The position numbers and the translations under genes are program-made. The notes beneath the pieces are model-generated. The model was not told where the DNA came from. It saw only the letters and a list, made by a program, of their open reading frames with translations, and ran no database searches. Positions 27,138 through 33,764 of a DNA stretch of 64,000 nucleotides are shown in pieces (position 1 is the stretch's first letter; each line of letters starts with the position of its first letter). Origin of the DNA: an uncultured archaeon. Its GTDB lineage: Archaea; Halobacteriota; Methanosarcinia; Methanosarcinales; Methanoperedenaceae. The DNA is taken from contig CABMIB010000083.1 in NCBI GenBank assembly GCA_902386135.1, forward strand, positions 1-64,000. The letters are read 5' to 3'.

Positions 27138-27181
27138 GGCACGGATTCGATGGATATTCACAGACATCCTTAATCCGTGCC
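27138..27181. repeat. Long imperfect hairpin between truA and aglB
   Basis: GGCACGGATT (27138-27147) and AATCCGTGCC (27172-27181) form a perfect 10-bp stem. Inner GGAT/ATCC segments extend the pairing. It sits between two convergent genes and may act as a bidirectional terminator or be a dispersed REP-like repeat. Confidence 0.5.
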
Positions 27182-27214
27182 AGTATGGTTTTTATATTCC
27201 TTCAAGTTACGCCG

Positions 27215-29842
27215 CTAAATCAAATCCAGGGTCACAGTGCCGCCATTAAGAACATCCTCTTCTTTGACATTAACAGGCTTTGAGATGTTGCCCGCGGTCA
27301 CTGTGTAAGGACCTTTCGGTCCGGTATCGAACAGCGTTTGTCCCGCGATCGGTTTTCCTGTGGAATAGGGAACTGTAAATTCATATGTTCCATCCGAGGA
27401 AGTGTTCTGGGAATACTGGATAGTTCTTCCAATATTTGTACTGACAGTATTTGTCAGTGTAACCATAGTATTTGGCGGCGCTCTCCCTGTGATTTTTGCG
27501 CCTTTTACATATTCAAAAATCTTTACGACTCCCGAATCTTCAACCGGGATATTGCCTCTGTACAATACATTATAAACATTTTTATCAAATTTCTCCCGAT
27601 AGCCTCCCTCCGTATTTGGATTTGTAGGAGATTCGTGTACCAGTCTGTACTGTTTTAAGCCATTGCCATCAAGGATATGTAATTTACCTTCCATGCTTGT
27701 AAAAGATTTCAAGCCAGGAATGCGGACGGCACCCTGACTTGTATACGCAATGGAATCATAATAATTCGTGGGGTCCGGTCTTACATTCTGACCAAATAAA
27801 GCCGGATCGTATGAGGCATTCTCTTCGTCGTTCCAGGTGGCGAATATAGGCTGGATGCCATATGCCATGTAACCATTGCTCACTATGTATCGAGCACCGG
27901 GTTTTCCATTGATCCCTAGGGCATCAAGCACTTTATTCGCTTCTTCCTCGCTCTTTGCGGTCAGGAAAGTAGAAGCCCCGGGCGCATGCGTTGCTCCTCC
28001 GCCGATACCTGCCTGGAATGGGTTTGCATTGGGTATCCTGTGCGCCCAGTACGTGATACTATGTCCATAGTCCCACCAGCTCATGACGCCGTAAGCACTT
28101 TCCGGATACTGGTACGTGCCGTTTTTGGGTTGTTCATAAATGCCAAAATAATCTAATCCCGGATCGGGCGTATTGTAGCGCATCCAGTTAAGCGCTTCCG
28201 TCCACGGATCGTACCCGCCGCCTGAAGGTTCACTGCCTCCGTAACGCGAAAGCGGAGGCGAAGTCGCGGTGCCAATAGCAGTAACCACAAGGCTCGGATA
28301 CACAAAGAAAAGCACAAGCATCGCTACAAGGATCAGGGAAAGTGCGTGAGACAGGCCGATATTTTTGCCCTGGTTCTCATACCATCCCCCGAACTTCATT
28401 ATCCGCTCTGAAAGTGCCACTGAAACGTAACCGATCATTAAAGCAATATTCACTGCAAAATAATAAGCCCACCTGACCTGCCCGTATATCGCAAGAAGCA
28501 TTACCAGGTTCCATACAAGCAGGAGCATCTCTTCAGGTCTTTGTCTTCTTGCAACCCTGTATCCTGTATAGGCAAGAGCAATAAATATGAACACGAGCAC
28601 CCAGTTATCAGTTTGCAGGAAACCCGTCACAGGGAAATTTCCCCAGACCATGCCGCCGGCTTGGGTAAAAATTGACTGGCCCTCTCCAACAGTGGCAGCA
28701 CCTCCTGTATGTACTGCAAAGATGAGACCGGGCGCTTCCATCAGGGAATCAAACAAATTGGGAAGGATTATTTTTAATCCCAGCAGCGCCGCCGCAAATA
28801 ATGCCACAAGAGAGAGCGGGTAATACAGAGGATTATATCCTCTTTCCTTAATCTCTTTTGAAAGTATATTCAATGCTGCCGGAACTGCCATGCCTGCGAT
28901 AGGCACAGCAACATGGAACCATGAATAATTGGATATTCCGAAACCGTACTCAGAATGAACATACGGCAGCACCGCTATTAATTCGATCAAGAACATGGGA
29001 ACCGCAGCAACAACAATGTAATCCGTTGACCTGCCCCGTAAGTGATCCACTATAAATTGGACAAAAATGAAGATCAAGAATATCATGATGAAGAACAGAG
29101 CGCCGGGCCATGTGATATGGAAAGCTGCAAGCATTATCCCTGCAAGTATAGAATACAACACCGGTTTTTCTTTTAAATTTTCTTTTAAATTCAGTCCTGA
29201 GAGTTTTATATTCCTTTCACGGCCGGCTTTTATTGCAAGCATAAAGAGAGCCATCGCCGCTGTGCTGAAAAAAACCTCGGCGACATGGTGGTCTGTGAAT
29301 CCCAGCGTTGAGCGGCTGAAGAACTGCCCCGGCAGGACGGCGATCATAAATGCTGCAAGCAGGCCCGCACTTCTGTTATACAGGAGCTTACCGATGTAAT
29401 ACACCGGGAAAACGACAAGCGCACCCATTACGGCAGGGAAATAGGCGGCTATGGCGTTCACGGTTTGCATGTTGTAACTGCCCAATCCTGCGATGAGCGA
29501 GAGAGTCGCGATCATCTGCGTCCACAGGGGTCCCCAGTGTATCGCGGTGCCAGTGGGGTAGACCGTAAATGCATCGTAAAAAAGCCTGTGTGGAAAATTA
29601 TTCAGTGTATTTTCAACAAGACGCATCTGGAAAACGGCATCATCCGAAGCAAATGCAACATAGCCGTTCCTGAAAACGCTATCATATGGCATTACAGTCC
29701 GTAAGTAAAGGGAAAGGACAAATATTGCCAGAAGGATTATGCCTGCTACATAGCCAAAATAAGAAGGAAAATTTAACTTTTGTTCTTTATCTTTTCCCGC
29801 TCTTACGGATTTCTCTTCACGCTTCTTTTTGTTCTTAGTCAT
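27215..29842 (-). CDS. aglB: AglB/STT3-type dolichyl-phosphooligosaccharide-protein glycotransferase (copy 1)
   Basis: An 875-residue enzyme that transfers a lipid-linked glycan to Asn in N-x-S/T sequons outside the membrane. About 12-13 helices lie in residues 30-515. The first acidic metal motif is SDDAVFQMR (D67/D68). The signature WWDYG is near residue 589, followed by a soluble C-terminal region. The last about 90 residues form a beta-rich, carboxypeptidase-regulatory-like module (TGRAPPNTMVTLTN...). It is the second copy transcribed leftward, after a 95-bp spacer carrying a TATA-like GTATATAAT near 29885, so it has its own promoter. Nearly identical to copy 2. Confidence 0.95.
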   Translation of the reverse strand: MTKNKKKREEKSVRAGKDKEQKLNFPSYFGYVAGIILLAIFVLSLYLRTVMPYDSVFRNGYVAFASDDAVFQMRLVENTLNNFPHRLFYDAFTVYPTGTAIHWGPLWTQMIATLSLIAGLGSYNMQTVNAIAAYFPAVMGALVVFPVYYIGKLLYNRSAGLLAAFMIAVLPGQFFSRSTLGFTDHHVAEVFFSTAAMALFMLAIKAGRERNIKLSGLNLKENLKEKPVLYSILAGIMLAAFHITWPGALFFIMIFLIFIFVQFIVDHLRGRSTDYIVVAAVPMFLIELIAVLPYVHSEYGFGISNYSWFHVAVPIAGMAVPAALNILSKEIKERGYNPLYYPLSLVALFAAALLGLKIILPNLFDSLMEAPGLIFAVHTGGAATVGEGQSIFTQAGGMVWGNFPVTGFLQTDNWVLVFIFIALAYTGYRVARRQRPEEMLLLVWNLVMLLAIYGQVRWAYYFAVNIALMIGYVSVALSERIMKFGGWYENQGKNIGLSHALSLILVAMLVLFFVYPSLVVTAIGTATSPPLSRYGGSEPSGGGYDPWTEALNWMRYNTPDPGLDYFGIYEQPKNGTYQYPESAYGVMSWWDYGHSITYWAHRIPNANPFQAGIGGGATHAPGASTFLTAKSEEEANKVLDALGINGKPGARYIVSNGYMAYGIQPIFATWNDEENASYDPALFGQNVRPDPTNYYDSIAYTSQGAVRIPGLKSFTSMEGKLHILDGNGLKQYRLVHESPTNPNTEGGYREKFDKNVYNVLYRGNIPVEDSGVVKIFEYVKGAKITGRAPPNTMVTLTNTVSTNIGRTIQYSQNTSSDGTYEFTVPYSTGKPIAGQTLFDTGPKGPYTVTAGNISKPVNVKEEDVLNGGTVTLDLI

Positions 29843-29879
29843 ATTAAACCTGTGATTAAACCTTTGATAGAACAGTTCG

Positions 29880-29896
29880 TGTATTATATACTTAAC
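29880..29896 (-). promoter_or_regulatory. TATA box of aglB copy 1
   Basis: On the minus strand the spacer reads TTAAGTATATAATACACG, a good archaeal TATA box about 40-45 bp before the ATG at 29842. The equivalent spot upstream of copy 2 reads TTAAGTTCGTAAATACACG, so the core is damaged there. The two copies may therefore differ in expression. Confidence 0.5.
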
Positions 29897-29936
29897 CCAT
29901 GCCAGTCTGGTTATTCATGTTCCTTCAAGTTACACG

Positions 29937-32561
29937 CTAGATCAAATCCAGGGTCACAGTGCCGCCATTAAGAACATCCTCTTCTTTGACATCAACAGCC
30001 TTTGAAATATTGCTCGCTGTCACTGTATAGGGACCTGTCGGTTTGGTATCGAACAGCGTCTGTCCCGCCATCGGAGCCCCTGTGGAATAAGGAACTGTAA
30101 ATTCATATGTTCCATCTGAGGAAGTGCTCTGGGAATACTGGATAGTTCTTTCGATATTTGTTTTAATGGTATTTGTCAGTGTAACCGTAGTATTTGGCGG
30201 TGCTCTTCCTGTGATCTTTGCGCCTTTTACATATTCAAAAATCTTTACAACCCCTGAGTTCTCAACCGGGATATTGCCTCCGTACAGTAAATTATAAACA
30301 TTTTTATAATATGTCTCCTGATAGCCTCCTTCAGTGTTTGGATTTGTAGGAGATTCGTGTACCAGCCTGTACTGTTTTAAGCCGTTACCATCAAGAATAT
30401 GTAATTTCCCTTCCATGCTTGTAAAAACTCTCAAGCCAGGAATGCGGACGGCACCTTGATTTGTAAATGCAATAGACTCGTAATAACTCGCTGGGTCTGG
30501 TCTTACATTCTGACCTCCCTCAGCCGGGTCGTATATTGCATTATCATCATTCCAGGTGGCGAATACACTCTGGATGCCATATGCCATGTAACCATTACTC
30601 ACTATGTATCGGGCACCGGGTTTTCCATTGATCCCCAGGGCATCAAGCACTTTATTCGCTTCATCCTCGCTTTTTGCGGTCAGGAAAGTAGAAGCTCCGG
30701 GCGCATGAGTTGATCCTCCACCGATTCCCGCCTGGAACGGGTTTGCATTGGGTATCCTGTGTGCCCAGTATGTGATACTATGTCCATAGTCCCACCAGCT
30801 CATGACGCCGTATGCGCTATCTAGATATGGATACGTGCCGCCGTTTTTAGGTTGTACATAAATAGCATAATAATCTAATCCCGGATCGGGCGTATTGTAG
30901 CGCATCCAGTTAAGCGCTTCCGTCCACTCATTGTACCCTCCGCCTGAAGGTTCCCCGCCCCCATAACGCGACTGCGGGGGTGAATTCGCGGTACCAATAG
31001 CAGTAACTACAACGCTCGGATACACAAAGAAAAGCACAAGCATCGCTACAAGGATCAGGGAAAGTGCGTGAGATAGGCCGATATTTTTGCCCTGGTTCTC
31101 ATACCATCCCCCGAACTTCATTATCCGCTCTGAAAGCGCCACTGCAACGTAACCGATCATTAAAGCAATATTCACTGCAAAATAATAAGCCCACCTGATC
31201 TGACCGTATATCGCAAGAAGCATTACCAGGTTCCATACAAGCAGGAGCATCTCTTCAGGTCTTTGTCTTCTTGCAACCCTGTATCCTACATAGGCAAGAG
31301 CAGCGAATATGAACACAAGCACCCAGGTATCATTTTGCAGGAAACCGGTCACAGGGAAATTTTCCCAGACCCAGCCGCTTTTGGAAAAAATTGACATGCC
31401 CTCTGCAACAGTATTAGCACCTCCTGTATGTACTGCAAAGATGAGACCGGGCGCTTCCGCCAGGGAATCAAACAAACTGGGAAGGATTATTTTTAATCCC
31501 AGCAGCGTCGCCGCAAAGAGTGCCACAAGAGAGAGCGGGTAATATAGGGGTTTATACCCTCTTTTATTAATCTCTTTTGAAAGTATATTCAATGCTGCCG
31601 GAACTGCCATGCCTGCGATAGGCACAGCAACATGGAACCATGAATAATTGGATATTCCGAAACCATAGTTAAAATTAACATACGGCAGCACCGCTATTAA
31701 TTCAATTAAAAACATGGGAACCGCAGCAACAACAATATAATCCGTTGACCTGCCCCGTAAGTGGTCAGCTATGGATTGGATAAAAATGAATATCAAGAAT
31801 ATCATAATGAAGAACAGAGCGCCGGGCCATGTGATATGGAAAGCTGCAAGCATTATTCCTGCAAGTACTGAATACAACACCGGTTTTTCTTTTAAATTTT
31901 CTTTTAAATTCAATCCTGAGAGTTTTATATTTCTTTGACTGCCTGCCTTTATTGCAAGCATAAAGAGAACCATCGCCGCTGTGCTGAAAAAAACCTCGGC
32001 GACGTGGTGGTCTGTGAATCCCAGTACCGAGCGCTGGAAGAACGGCCCCGGCAGAACAGCGATCATAAATGCTGCAAGCAGGCCTGCATTCCTGTTATAC
32101 AGGAGCTTACCGATGTAATACACCGGGAAAACAACGAGCGCACCAAGTACGGCAGGGAAATAGGCGGCTATGGCGTTCACGGTTTGCATGTTGTAACTGC
32201 CCATTCCTGCGATGAGCGAGAGAGTCGCGATCATCTGCGTCCACAGGGGTCCCCAGTGTATCGCGGTGCCAGTGGGGTAGACCGTAAATGCATCGTAAAA
32301 AAGCCTATGTGGAAAATTATTCAGTGTATTTTCAACAAGACGCATCTGGAAAACGGCATCATCCGAAGCAAACGCAACAAAGCCGTTCCTGAAAACGCTA
32401 TCATATGGCATTACAGTCCGTAAGTAAAGGGACAGGACAAATATTGCCAGAAGGATTATGCCTGGTATATAGTTAAAATAAGAAGGAAAATTTAACTTTT
32501 GTTCTTTATCTTTTCCAGCTCTTACGGATTTCTCTTCACGCTTCTTTTTGTTCTTAGTCAT
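29937..32561 (-). CDS. aglB: AglB/STT3-type oligosaccharyltransferase (copy 2)
   Basis: An 874-residue paralogue of the neighbouring gene with the same architecture: a Lys-rich cytoplasmic start, multiple membrane helices, SDDAVFQMR at about 66-74, WWDYG at about 588 and the same C-terminal beta module. Differences cluster in the soluble loops around residues 385-400 and 545-580 and in the C-terminal module. This suggests relaxed or divergent selection on acceptor- or glycan-facing surfaces rather than decay. No frameshift or stop. Its promoter core differs from copy 1. Two OST genes are known in several archaea and may use different glycans. Confidence 0.95.
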   Translation of the reverse strand: MTKNKKKREEKSVRAGKDKEQKLNFPSYFNYIPGIILLAIFVLSLYLRTVMPYDSVFRNGFVAFASDDAVFQMRLVENTLNNFPHRLFYDAFTVYPTGTAIHWGPLWTQMIATLSLIAGMGSYNMQTVNAIAAYFPAVLGALVVFPVYYIGKLLYNRNAGLLAAFMIAVLPGPFFQRSVLGFTDHHVAEVFFSTAAMVLFMLAIKAGSQRNIKLSGLNLKENLKEKPVLYSVLAGIMLAAFHITWPGALFFIMIFLIFIFIQSIADHLRGRSTDYIVVAAVPMFLIELIAVLPYVNFNYGFGISNYSWFHVAVPIAGMAVPAALNILSKEINKRGYKPLYYPLSLVALFAATLLGLKIILPSLFDSLAEAPGLIFAVHTGGANTVAEGMSIFSKSGWVWENFPVTGFLQNDTWVLVFIFAALAYVGYRVARRQRPEEMLLLVWNLVMLLAIYGQIRWAYYFAVNIALMIGYVAVALSERIMKFGGWYENQGKNIGLSHALSLILVAMLVLFFVYPSVVVTAIGTANSPPQSRYGGGEPSGGGYNEWTEALNWMRYNTPDPGLDYYAIYVQPKNGGTYPYLDSAYGVMSWWDYGHSITYWAHRIPNANPFQAGIGGGSTHAPGASTFLTAKSEDEANKVLDALGINGKPGARYIVSNGYMAYGIQSVFATWNDDNAIYDPAEGGQNVRPDPASYYESIAFTNQGAVRIPGLRVFTSMEGKLHILDGNGLKQYRLVHESPTNPNTEGGYQETYYKNVYNLLYGGNIPVENSGVVKIFEYVKGAKITGRAPPNTTVTLTNTIKTNIERTIQYSQSTSSDGTYEFTVPYSTGAPMAGQTLFDTKPTGPYTVTASNISKAVDVKEEDVLNGGTVTLDLI

Positions 32562-32612
32562 ATTAAACCTTTGATAGAACGGTTCGTGTATTTACGAACT
32601 TAACATTTACAG

Positions 32613-33764
32613 TTATTGCCTTAGTGATACCACTTTGAGATACTGATCACTTATTTCATTCCATCCTAATGCTGGCGGATTATATATTTTTTCTCTCTCA
32701 AAGTTCTCAAGGAGCTTTTTCTTTATCTCATCGCTATTCATGGGAGGTACAAAAATAGCTCCTGCATATTTCCCCAGCGATTCTTTTAATCCTCCTACAT
32801 CAGAAGCGATCACCGGTTTCCCGAAGGACATTGCAATATGAGCGATACCGCTCTGTGAAGCCCGCGTGTAGGGCAGGACTACGATGCTTGCGGCGCTGAA
32901 ATACACAGGAACTTTGTTGTCAGGAACATATTCATCCACAAGTGTGATTTTTTCGGTGAAGGGAGAAGATCTTATCCGGGAAAGCAGCTCTTCCCTGTCC
33001 TCCCACATCTCGCCCACGATAAGCAGCCTGCTTCTTTTAACTATGTTTTCCGGCAGCAGCTCAAAAGCCTTGATCAGGTAAGGCACCCCTTTATACCTCC
33101 TGATCAGGCCGAAGGAAAGGATAACGAACTCTTCTTTGATGGACAGGAGTTCCCTTGCCTTTTTTGTATCCATGACACTGCCGTAATGGTCGTACAGGCC
33201 ATGCGGGATCACATGGATTTTTTGCGGGTCAATTCCGTACCTCTTAGACACCAAAAACTTATCCGATGTTGAATGTACGATGTAAGTATCAAGATCATCG
33301 CGAAGGATCTTTCCCATCAAACGCGAATAAATCCTGAGGGGAAAGATGCTTTCTTCCAGCGGGTCAACCACTTCATGAAAGTCGATTACCAACCTTGATT
33401 TCAAGGATAAGCCCATTATTTTCATGAGCAGGTGCATATGGGATACAGAGGATGTCCACCACTGCAAAATAATGATATCGGGCTTTGTTCTCCTGAGGTG
33501 GCGGTATGCCCTGTACCATGTTACCGGGTTGTTATAGTCCATCCCGTCGTACACCTGCACTGCCGGCGAGAACTCAAGGTGCGAAATCTCTTTACCCACA
33601 TGCGCGCGCCCGGGGAACAGGAAGCGGGGGAGAAGGTTCCTGTAACAGATAACAGACACGCTGCAGGAAGCCGATAAAGAATTCGCAAGCCGCATAATAA
33701 AATAGCTGATCCAGCTCAGGAAATGTTTTGATGGCCCGACGATGCAGACTTTTACATTTTGCAT
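32613..33764 (-). CDS. GT4-family glycosyltransferase
   Basis: A 383-residue GT-B enzyme. The C-terminal donor-binding half has VILSFGLIRRYKGVPYLIKAF (about 213-233, given as a family hallmark in 20 residues: LSFGLIRRYKGVPYLIKAF) and a distal SGIAHIAMSFGKPVIASDVGG, with Ser where many enzymes have a Glu. The N-terminal half carries the acceptor site. It probably adds one sugar to the lipid-linked glycan at the cytoplasmic face. It is divergent from the GT cluster that starts at 33829 and shares a 64-bp promoter region, and it lies just upstream of the aglB pair. Confidence 0.88.
   Translation of the reverse strand: MQNVKVCIVGPSKHFLSWISYFIMRLANSLSASCSVSVICYRNLLPRFLFPGRAHVGKEISHLEFSPAVQVYDGMDYNNPVTWYRAYRHLRRTKPDIIILQWWTSSVSHMHLLMKIMGLSLKSRLVIDFHEVVDPLEESIFPLRIYSRLMGKILRDDLDTYIVHSTSDKFLVSKRYGIDPQKIHVIPHGLYDHYGSVMDTKKARELLSIKEEFVILSFGLIRRYKGVPYLIKAFELLPENIVKRSRLLIVGEMWEDREELLSRIRSSPFTEKITLVDEYVPDNKVPVYFSAASIVVLPYTRASQSGIAHIAMSFGKPVIASDVGGLKESLGKYAGAIFVPPMNSDEIKKKLLENFEREKIYNPPALGWNEISDQYLKVVSLRQ

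Follow-up and report, generated by a model that had tools for sequence, protein, structure and literature searches.

A tandem pair of AglB oligosaccharyltransferase genes in an uncultured Methanoperedenaceae archaeon and the possible diversification of acceptor choice through EL5

The aglB pair and its surroundings

The analysed window comprises 64,000 nucleotides of contig CABMIB010000083.1 (C83 in our numbering) from an uncultured Methanoperedenaceae archaeon (GCA_902386135.1), whose genome totals 3.24 Mb in 120 contigs and whose nearest relatives are Ca. Methanoperedens. The relatives referred to below are M. nitroreducens Mnv1 (G008), archaeon FeB_1 (G019), Fe_173 (G013) and BE2012_43_12 (G040). 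According to the list of open reading frames, the host genome carries two aglB genes in head-to-tail orientation, termed here the upstream and the downstream copy (Table 1).

Table 1. Features of the aglB locus. Coordinates are those of the window.
Feature	Coordinates	Strand	Description
GT4-type glycosyltransferase gene	32613-33764	minus	directly upstream of the upstream copy; PF00534/PF13692/PF13439
Gap between glycosyltransferase gene and upstream copy	32562-32612	minus	holds the TTCGT-N6-ACGAA inverted repeat
aglB, upstream copy	29937-32561	minus	874 aa; PF02516 STT3, PF22627 AglB_core and PF18079 AglB_L1 above cut-off
EL5 of the upstream copy	31350-31493	minus	residues 357-404, TVAE = TIXE motif at 384-387; from HMMER alignment to AfAglB, coordinates calculated
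Junction	29843-29936	minus	3' flank of the upstream copy, TTAAG (29895-29891), TATATAAT (29890-29883), start of the downstream copy
aglB, downstream copy	27215-29842	minus	875 aa; PF02516, PF22627 and PF18079 above cut-off; 90% protein identity to the upstream copy
EL5 of the downstream copy	28628-28774	minus	TVGE motif, one extra Gly; from alignment of the copies, coordinates calculated

The ATG codons at 32561 and 29842 lie 2,719 bp apart, and the copies share 2399 of 2619 aligned nucleotides (91.6%). The likeness extends about 45 bp into each flank, with 39 of 46 aligned columns matching beyond the stop codons and 39 of 44 ahead of the ATGs. The pentanucleotide TTAAG is found at 32603, 29895 and 27173, that is, at both edges of the duplication and at the junction, which suggests that a crossover at this short repeat may have produced the second copy. 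The earlier note had proposed a duplication of the whole unit with similarity past both gene ends, and both proposals are borne out by these observations. That the pair is an assembly artefact or a strain chimera is highly improbable: the host genome is fragmented and the aglB gene of Mnv1 is itself split over two contig ends, but the copies are 8.4% different throughout, lie deep within a 107-kb contig and are joined by a unique junction, and a separate tandem pair is present in FeB_1.

The upstream copy matches the A. fulgidus AglB (AfAglB, 3waj) with E=9.7e-108 (HMMER). Both copies keep DXD1, DXD2, TIXE and WWDYG, the catalytic motifs being SDDA (66-69), TDHH (183-186), TVAE or TVGE (384-387) and WWDYG (589-593). 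The Ser/Thr-pocket, whose signature is defined as a DK or MI motif (PMC3703281), reads MAYGI in both, with Ile663 aligned to Lys618 of AfAglB, hence an Ile-type pocket. From the domains and motifs, both proteins are predicted to be working AglB-L enzymes that carry out oligosaccharyl transfer. In AfAglB, external loop 5 (EL5) spans residues 331-374 with TIXE at 357-360; the first half of the loop joins in lipid-donor binding, and alanine scanning of residues 356-365 caused a sharp loss of activity (PMC8342417). The second, C-terminal half binds the acceptor sequon. Outside the pair, the host genome has three more STT3 matches, on C118, on C39 and as a fragment on C6. The one on C118 (L128, 7331-10747) is a long STT3-like open reading frame of 1139 aa, which resembles a frame of 1147 aa on C186 of Mnv1 (L127, 5901-9341) in being about 27% identical to AglB; these are apparently another type of oligosaccharyltransferase.

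The neighbourhood is rich in glycosyltransferases, as judged from Pfam matches. A homologue of the GT4-type glycosyltransferase precedes aglB in Mnv1, G022, G005, G016, G040 and G013, and the aglB start in the relatives coincides with, or lies close to, the end of the glycosyltransferase gene. In Mnv1, gene order is conserved on either side, with protein identities of 93% for the upstream glycosyltransferase and 95% for a downstream frame of 267 aa. This frame presumably encodes a protein resembling the TruA pseudouridine synthase.

The sequences ahead of the two copies are not alike. The inverted repeat TTCGT-N6-ACGAA at 32583-32598 is the sole match in the window and stands ahead of the upstream copy only, its left arm being absent ahead of the downstream one; Mnv1 has TTCGTA-N4-TACGAA at the equivalent position, and the repeat is a possible operator. 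Conversely, TATATAAT occurs only ahead of the downstream copy. As putative promoter elements, TATATA lies 48 nt ahead of the downstream ATG and TAAATA 33 nt ahead of the upstream one; the earlier note had described a TATA box as intact for one copy only. The upstream copy would be read together with the preceding glycosyltransferase gene, and the downstream copy may have its own promoter in addition. It is conceivable, but unlikely, that the copies diverged mainly in expression and serve under different conditions. The distribution of the two elements and the usual position of aglB behind a glycosyltransferase gene would agree with this; however, TATA matches are weak evidence, and the sole visible aglB 5' end of Mnv1 carries TATATTTA inside the inverted repeat, so that TATATT and the repeat are both present there and the TATA-like element is not new. 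Divergence in expression can also coexist with divergence in acceptor choice.

Divergence of the copies and age of the duplication

The amino acid differences between the copies are concentrated in EL5, where 10 of 48 residues differ in addition to a one-residue indel, versus 27 of 418 in the remaining membrane domain (p=0.002). Within the loop, the C-terminal acceptor half differs at 8 of 27 residues and the N-terminal lipid-donor half at 2 of 21. Of the ten positions that match AfAglB 356-365 in the alignment, three have changed (N383A, A386G and M389Q), and T384 and E387 are the same in both copies. The excess is weaker in residues 644-779 (20 of 136) and in L1 (12 of 90). Thus, of the claim that differences gather in the external loops and the C-terminal module, the part on loops holds for EL5, and the part on the module holds less strongly.

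At the codon level, EL5 carries 15 nonsynonymous (N) and 1 synonymous (S) substitutions, compared with 95:109 elsewhere (Fisher p=3.3e-4); against strict neutrality, the value for the loop is p=0.077. In a scan with 48-codon windows, N minus S peaks in windows starting at 378-383 (18N/4S, codon-shuffle p=0.013). When polarised with Mnv1, EL5 shows 10N/1S on the upstream and 3N/0S on the downstream copy, so 10 of the 13 resolved amino-acid-changing substitutions fall on the former. For the whole gene, the figures are 59N/56S and 37N/44S, respectively, with 20 substitutions left unpolarised. With about three nonsynonymous sites per synonymous site, these convert to omega of approximately 0.25-0.32; both copies are under purifying selection, and neither has the dN/dS near 1 throughout that the earlier note had named as evidence against its reading. 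Between Mnv1 and each copy, omega in EL5 is 0.92 and 0.68, versus 0.25 and 0.23 elsewhere.

The copies show a silent divergence (pS) of 0.18 from each other and of 0.27-0.28 from Mnv1, their nearest relative, a proportion of about two thirds; the duplication is therefore not very young, and it was recent, as had been claimed, in relative terms only. The silent divergence is uneven along the gene: 0.14 in the TM segment 35-356, 0.03 in EL5, 0.09 in 405-500 and 0.25-0.31 in 501-779, the last approaching the distance to Mnv1. Correspondingly, dS is 0.03 in EL5 and 0.22 elsewhere. Silent sites agree more often in the N-terminal part (43 of 74) than in the C-terminal part (36 of 95, p=0.013), and one way to read this contrast is as conversion of the N-terminal part; the longest silent run is within chance (p=0.34), so gene conversion in the pair is weakly suggested. 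That EL5 was imported from a diverged homologue was rejected, because import would bring many silent changes and the loop has a single one.

In a tree of 67 AglB proteins, from which the Mnv1 pieces were left out as too short, the copies are sisters with support of 100. The Mnv1 pieces are slightly closer to the downstream copy (piece A, 88.4% versus 87.3% identity to the upstream copy; piece B, 87.7% versus 85.6%), and their informative sites lean the same way, 49:35 and 66:46. These distances, taken from a Mnv1 gene cut at contig ends, fit a duplication after the split from Mnv1 with the upstream copy evolving faster. The junction piece between the copies was searched for in Mnv1, where the gene ends at two contig ends, and was not found.

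EL5 in tandem aglB genes of other genomes

Tandem aglB genes are an already known kind of arrangement: MM0646 and MM0647, neighbours by their locus numbers, are aglB genes of M. mazei (PMC4350412), and aglB duplications in archaea generally have been described (PMC4973528). Among 31 genomes of the genus, full-length pairs on the same contig were found in the host genome and in FeB_1. The FeB_1 pair (L117, 3156-8494) is a separate one with very different EL5 sequences and a six-residue gap. BE2012_43_12 has a second, partial aglB about 2.6 kb downstream with another open reading frame in between, and the two Fe_173 copies, which group as sisters (support 99), sit on two contigs, each ending in aglB. 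In G041 (L136) and nzgw23 (L079), aglB lies in two overlapping frames near residue 475, due to a frameshift or a low-coverage assembly error, and in G032:C109 (L121), from another genome of the taxonomic order, several partial C-terminal pieces of aglB follow one another, perhaps the remains of an array in decay. In Methanosarcina, at least 14 of 23 genomes have 2-4 aglB matches close together on one contig.

The ratio of divergence in the EL5 C-terminal half to that in the TM regions was compared between 14 tandem pairs (the closest pair per genome, both members long enough, membrane-domain distance 0.02-0.30) and 26 greedily chosen disjoint single-copy pairs (distance up to 0.26); the multi-copy genomes were chosen by hand, and contig ends restrict how surely a genome can be called single-copy. 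The median was 2.9 for the tandem pairs and 0.97 for the controls (p=9e-6). At matched distances the values were 3.06 (13 pairs) and 0.80 (10 pairs, p=5e-4), and by clade 3.0 (9 clades) and 0.80 (12 controls, p=0.004). Relative to the membrane domain, the ratio is 4.6 for the host pair and 6.6 for FeB_1. The 90 between-genome control pairs of Methanoperedenaceae gave a higher median of 1.87 and a maximum of 2.89, although they are more distant than the tandem pairs and saturation may lower their ratios; the excess of the host and FeB_1 pairs is therefore smaller against their own family.

In most Methanosarcina pairs and in FeB_1, silent divergence is high in EL5 as well, with dS in EL5 and elsewhere of 1.40/0.23 (G112), 1.27/0.32 (G113), 1.61/0.38 (L067), 1.34/0.44 (G130) and 0.85/0.22 (G019); G108, G110 and G119 show no such rise. 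The EL5/TM silent ratio was 0.9-5.2 in 12 tandem pairs and 0.6-1.6 in 15 controls (p=0.001), with G125 left out owing to silent saturation and the host pair shown apart from the profile. The controls were the closest 12 of the 26 and three picked by hand, namely G004/G019 and two pairs from different species in which an array member took part. Window p-values of the silent profiles are uncorrected, and paralogue pairs of related Methanosarcina are non-independent. A high EL5 omega as a general signature of arrays was rejected, since the pooled N:S odds ratio was 1.27 in the 14 pairs and 1.37 in the 15 controls; EL5 stands out in arrays because silent and amino-acid changes are both high.

For 26 copies from 11 genomes (the short copy G109_5854m was dropped), we determined how often the nearest relative was a paralogue from the same genome. 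This was so for 24 copies in residues 93-308 and 22 in 789-860, and for only 4 in the EL5 C-terminal half, 4 in 525-548, 5 in 645-668 and 8 in 45-68. Windows of 24 codons repeated the profile, with no result for 669-692. Hence paralogues in one genome are homogenised along much of their length and distinct at substrate stretches: those that stay distinct across species hold DXD1 (EL1), TIXE (EL5), the linker between TM13 and the globular domain, and the Ser/Thr-pocket helix. For the Methanosarcina arrays, the simplest explanation of these sequence patterns would be gene conversion together with selection against conversion at the substrate site. More broadly, we tentatively suggest, at somewhat less than an even chance, that Methanosarcinales arrays diversify acceptor recognition, with conversion homogenising the scaffold and the tail and selection keeping the four stretches distinct; the Methanoperedens pair would then be an early stage in which EL5 is changing by amino acids.

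Two further observations concern the substrate site. Of 45 sequences that come from multi-copy genomes, 12 have a bulky or charged residue (D, E, L, Q or R) as the X of TIXE; of 79 others, 2 do so, one being the host genome's own distant paralogue. In the Methanosarcina arrays at L145-L149, L152, L155, L156, L067, L072 and L076, one or two members carry TIDE, TIEE, TILE, TIQE or TIRE instead of a TIXE with a small X, and often adjoin a copy with a small X. Lys and Ile pockets occur together in four genomes, G113 (L150), G115 (L151), G121 (L153) and G125 (L154), the former being of the EMATGKFYAM and the latter of the MATxIFxAM type. According to PMC3703281, paralogues within one organism always have the same pocket type, and its structure-guided alignment gives the three M. 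mazei AglBs as DK variants. The mixed pockets would contradict this rule; we regard them as a lead that rests on one alignment column.

Possible divergence in acceptor choice and its wider meaning

The best reading of the host pair, to which we give an even chance, is that the two copies diverged in acceptor choice. An ordinary archaeal oligosaccharyltransferase gene would have been duplicated in tandem, with edges at TTAAG, to give two working AglB-L enzymes. As the scaffold, the metal site and the Ser/Thr-pocket are identical, both would use the lipid-linked glycans of one pathway; they would prefer different residues flanking the N-X-S/T sequon, and so together cover more acceptor sites. 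The earlier note had left acceptor, glycan and expression side by side. Since the excess of EL5 changes falls in the acceptor half rather than the lipid-donor half, acceptor choice is favoured over glycan choice; upstream sequences do differ. Transfer of different lipid-linked glycans by the two copies seems improbable: the participation of the first half of EL5 in donor binding (PMC8342417) and the many glycosyltransferase genes nearby would suit it, but only two residues of that half have changed.

The main rival is that the duplicate adds capacity for the same work and that redundancy relaxes the constraint on an already fast EL5, which we consider rather unlikely. EL5 does evolve fast between Mnv1 and each copy too and is not significantly above neutral, and both facts count against divergence in acceptor choice, as does the lack in this pair of the high EL5 silent divergence seen in most other arrays. 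Relaxation, however, fits less well with changes in and beside the essential TIXE segment that leave T384, E387 and the other tested motifs intact, with constraint on the remainder of both genes, and with the excess of EL5 C-half divergence in tandem pairs over single-copy controls.

Divergence in acceptor choice can be compared with known systems. The Methanosarcina arrays likewise consist of neighbouring AglB-L paralogues with raised divergence in the EL5 C-terminal half, and on the tree they are lineage-specific duplications separate from that of the host. Unlike the host pair, they comprise 2-4 genes with strong marks of gene conversion and, in most cases, high EL5 silent divergence; one member often carries a bulky TIXE X, and four genomes have pockets of both types, features that the host pair lacks. 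Their concerted evolution, with a homogenised scaffold and an EL5 silent peak, is likewise not seen in the host pair. Trypanosoma brucei also has related single-subunit oligosaccharyltransferases in one organism, STT3A, STT3B and STT3C, which differ in acceptor and donor specificity, with a region including residues 397 and 406 controlling acceptor choice (PMC5724017); this region would correspond to EL5. Those enzymes are eukaryotic, and as their specificity was measured they serve as a functional precedent. The A. fulgidus AglB-L, a relative of solved structure (3waj, 5gmy, 7e9s), has its fold family, motifs and L1 domain in common with both copies but Lys in place of Ile in the pocket, and its AglB-S1 and AglB-S2 paralogues are not near-identical tandem copies but much shorter proteins (PMC3703281). 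Plant STT3a and STT3b also differ near EL5, with Ka/Ks peaks in divergent regions, but stem from an ancient green-plant duplication and act in a multi-subunit enzyme (PMC7050244). A survey of concerted evolution in prokaryotes names seven genes from archaea, including four from Methanosarcinales, with no oligosaccharyltransferase among those it names (PMC6053082), and in the freely accessible literature searched we found no description of tandem aglB genes undergoing gene conversion or diverging in EL5.

Little is known of the roles of AglB paralogues, as stated in PMC3703281. With its near-identical scaffold and few acceptor-loop differences, a tandem pair of this kind amounts to a natural set of mutants, and exchange of EL5 between copies could help to choose enzymes for glycoprotein engineering. 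The main point of interest, beyond the single pair, is the pattern across arrays, which singles out four short segments as possible determinants of acceptor choice. In the methane-oxidising host, two adjacent enzymes may divide between them the protein targets for the attachment of sugar chains.
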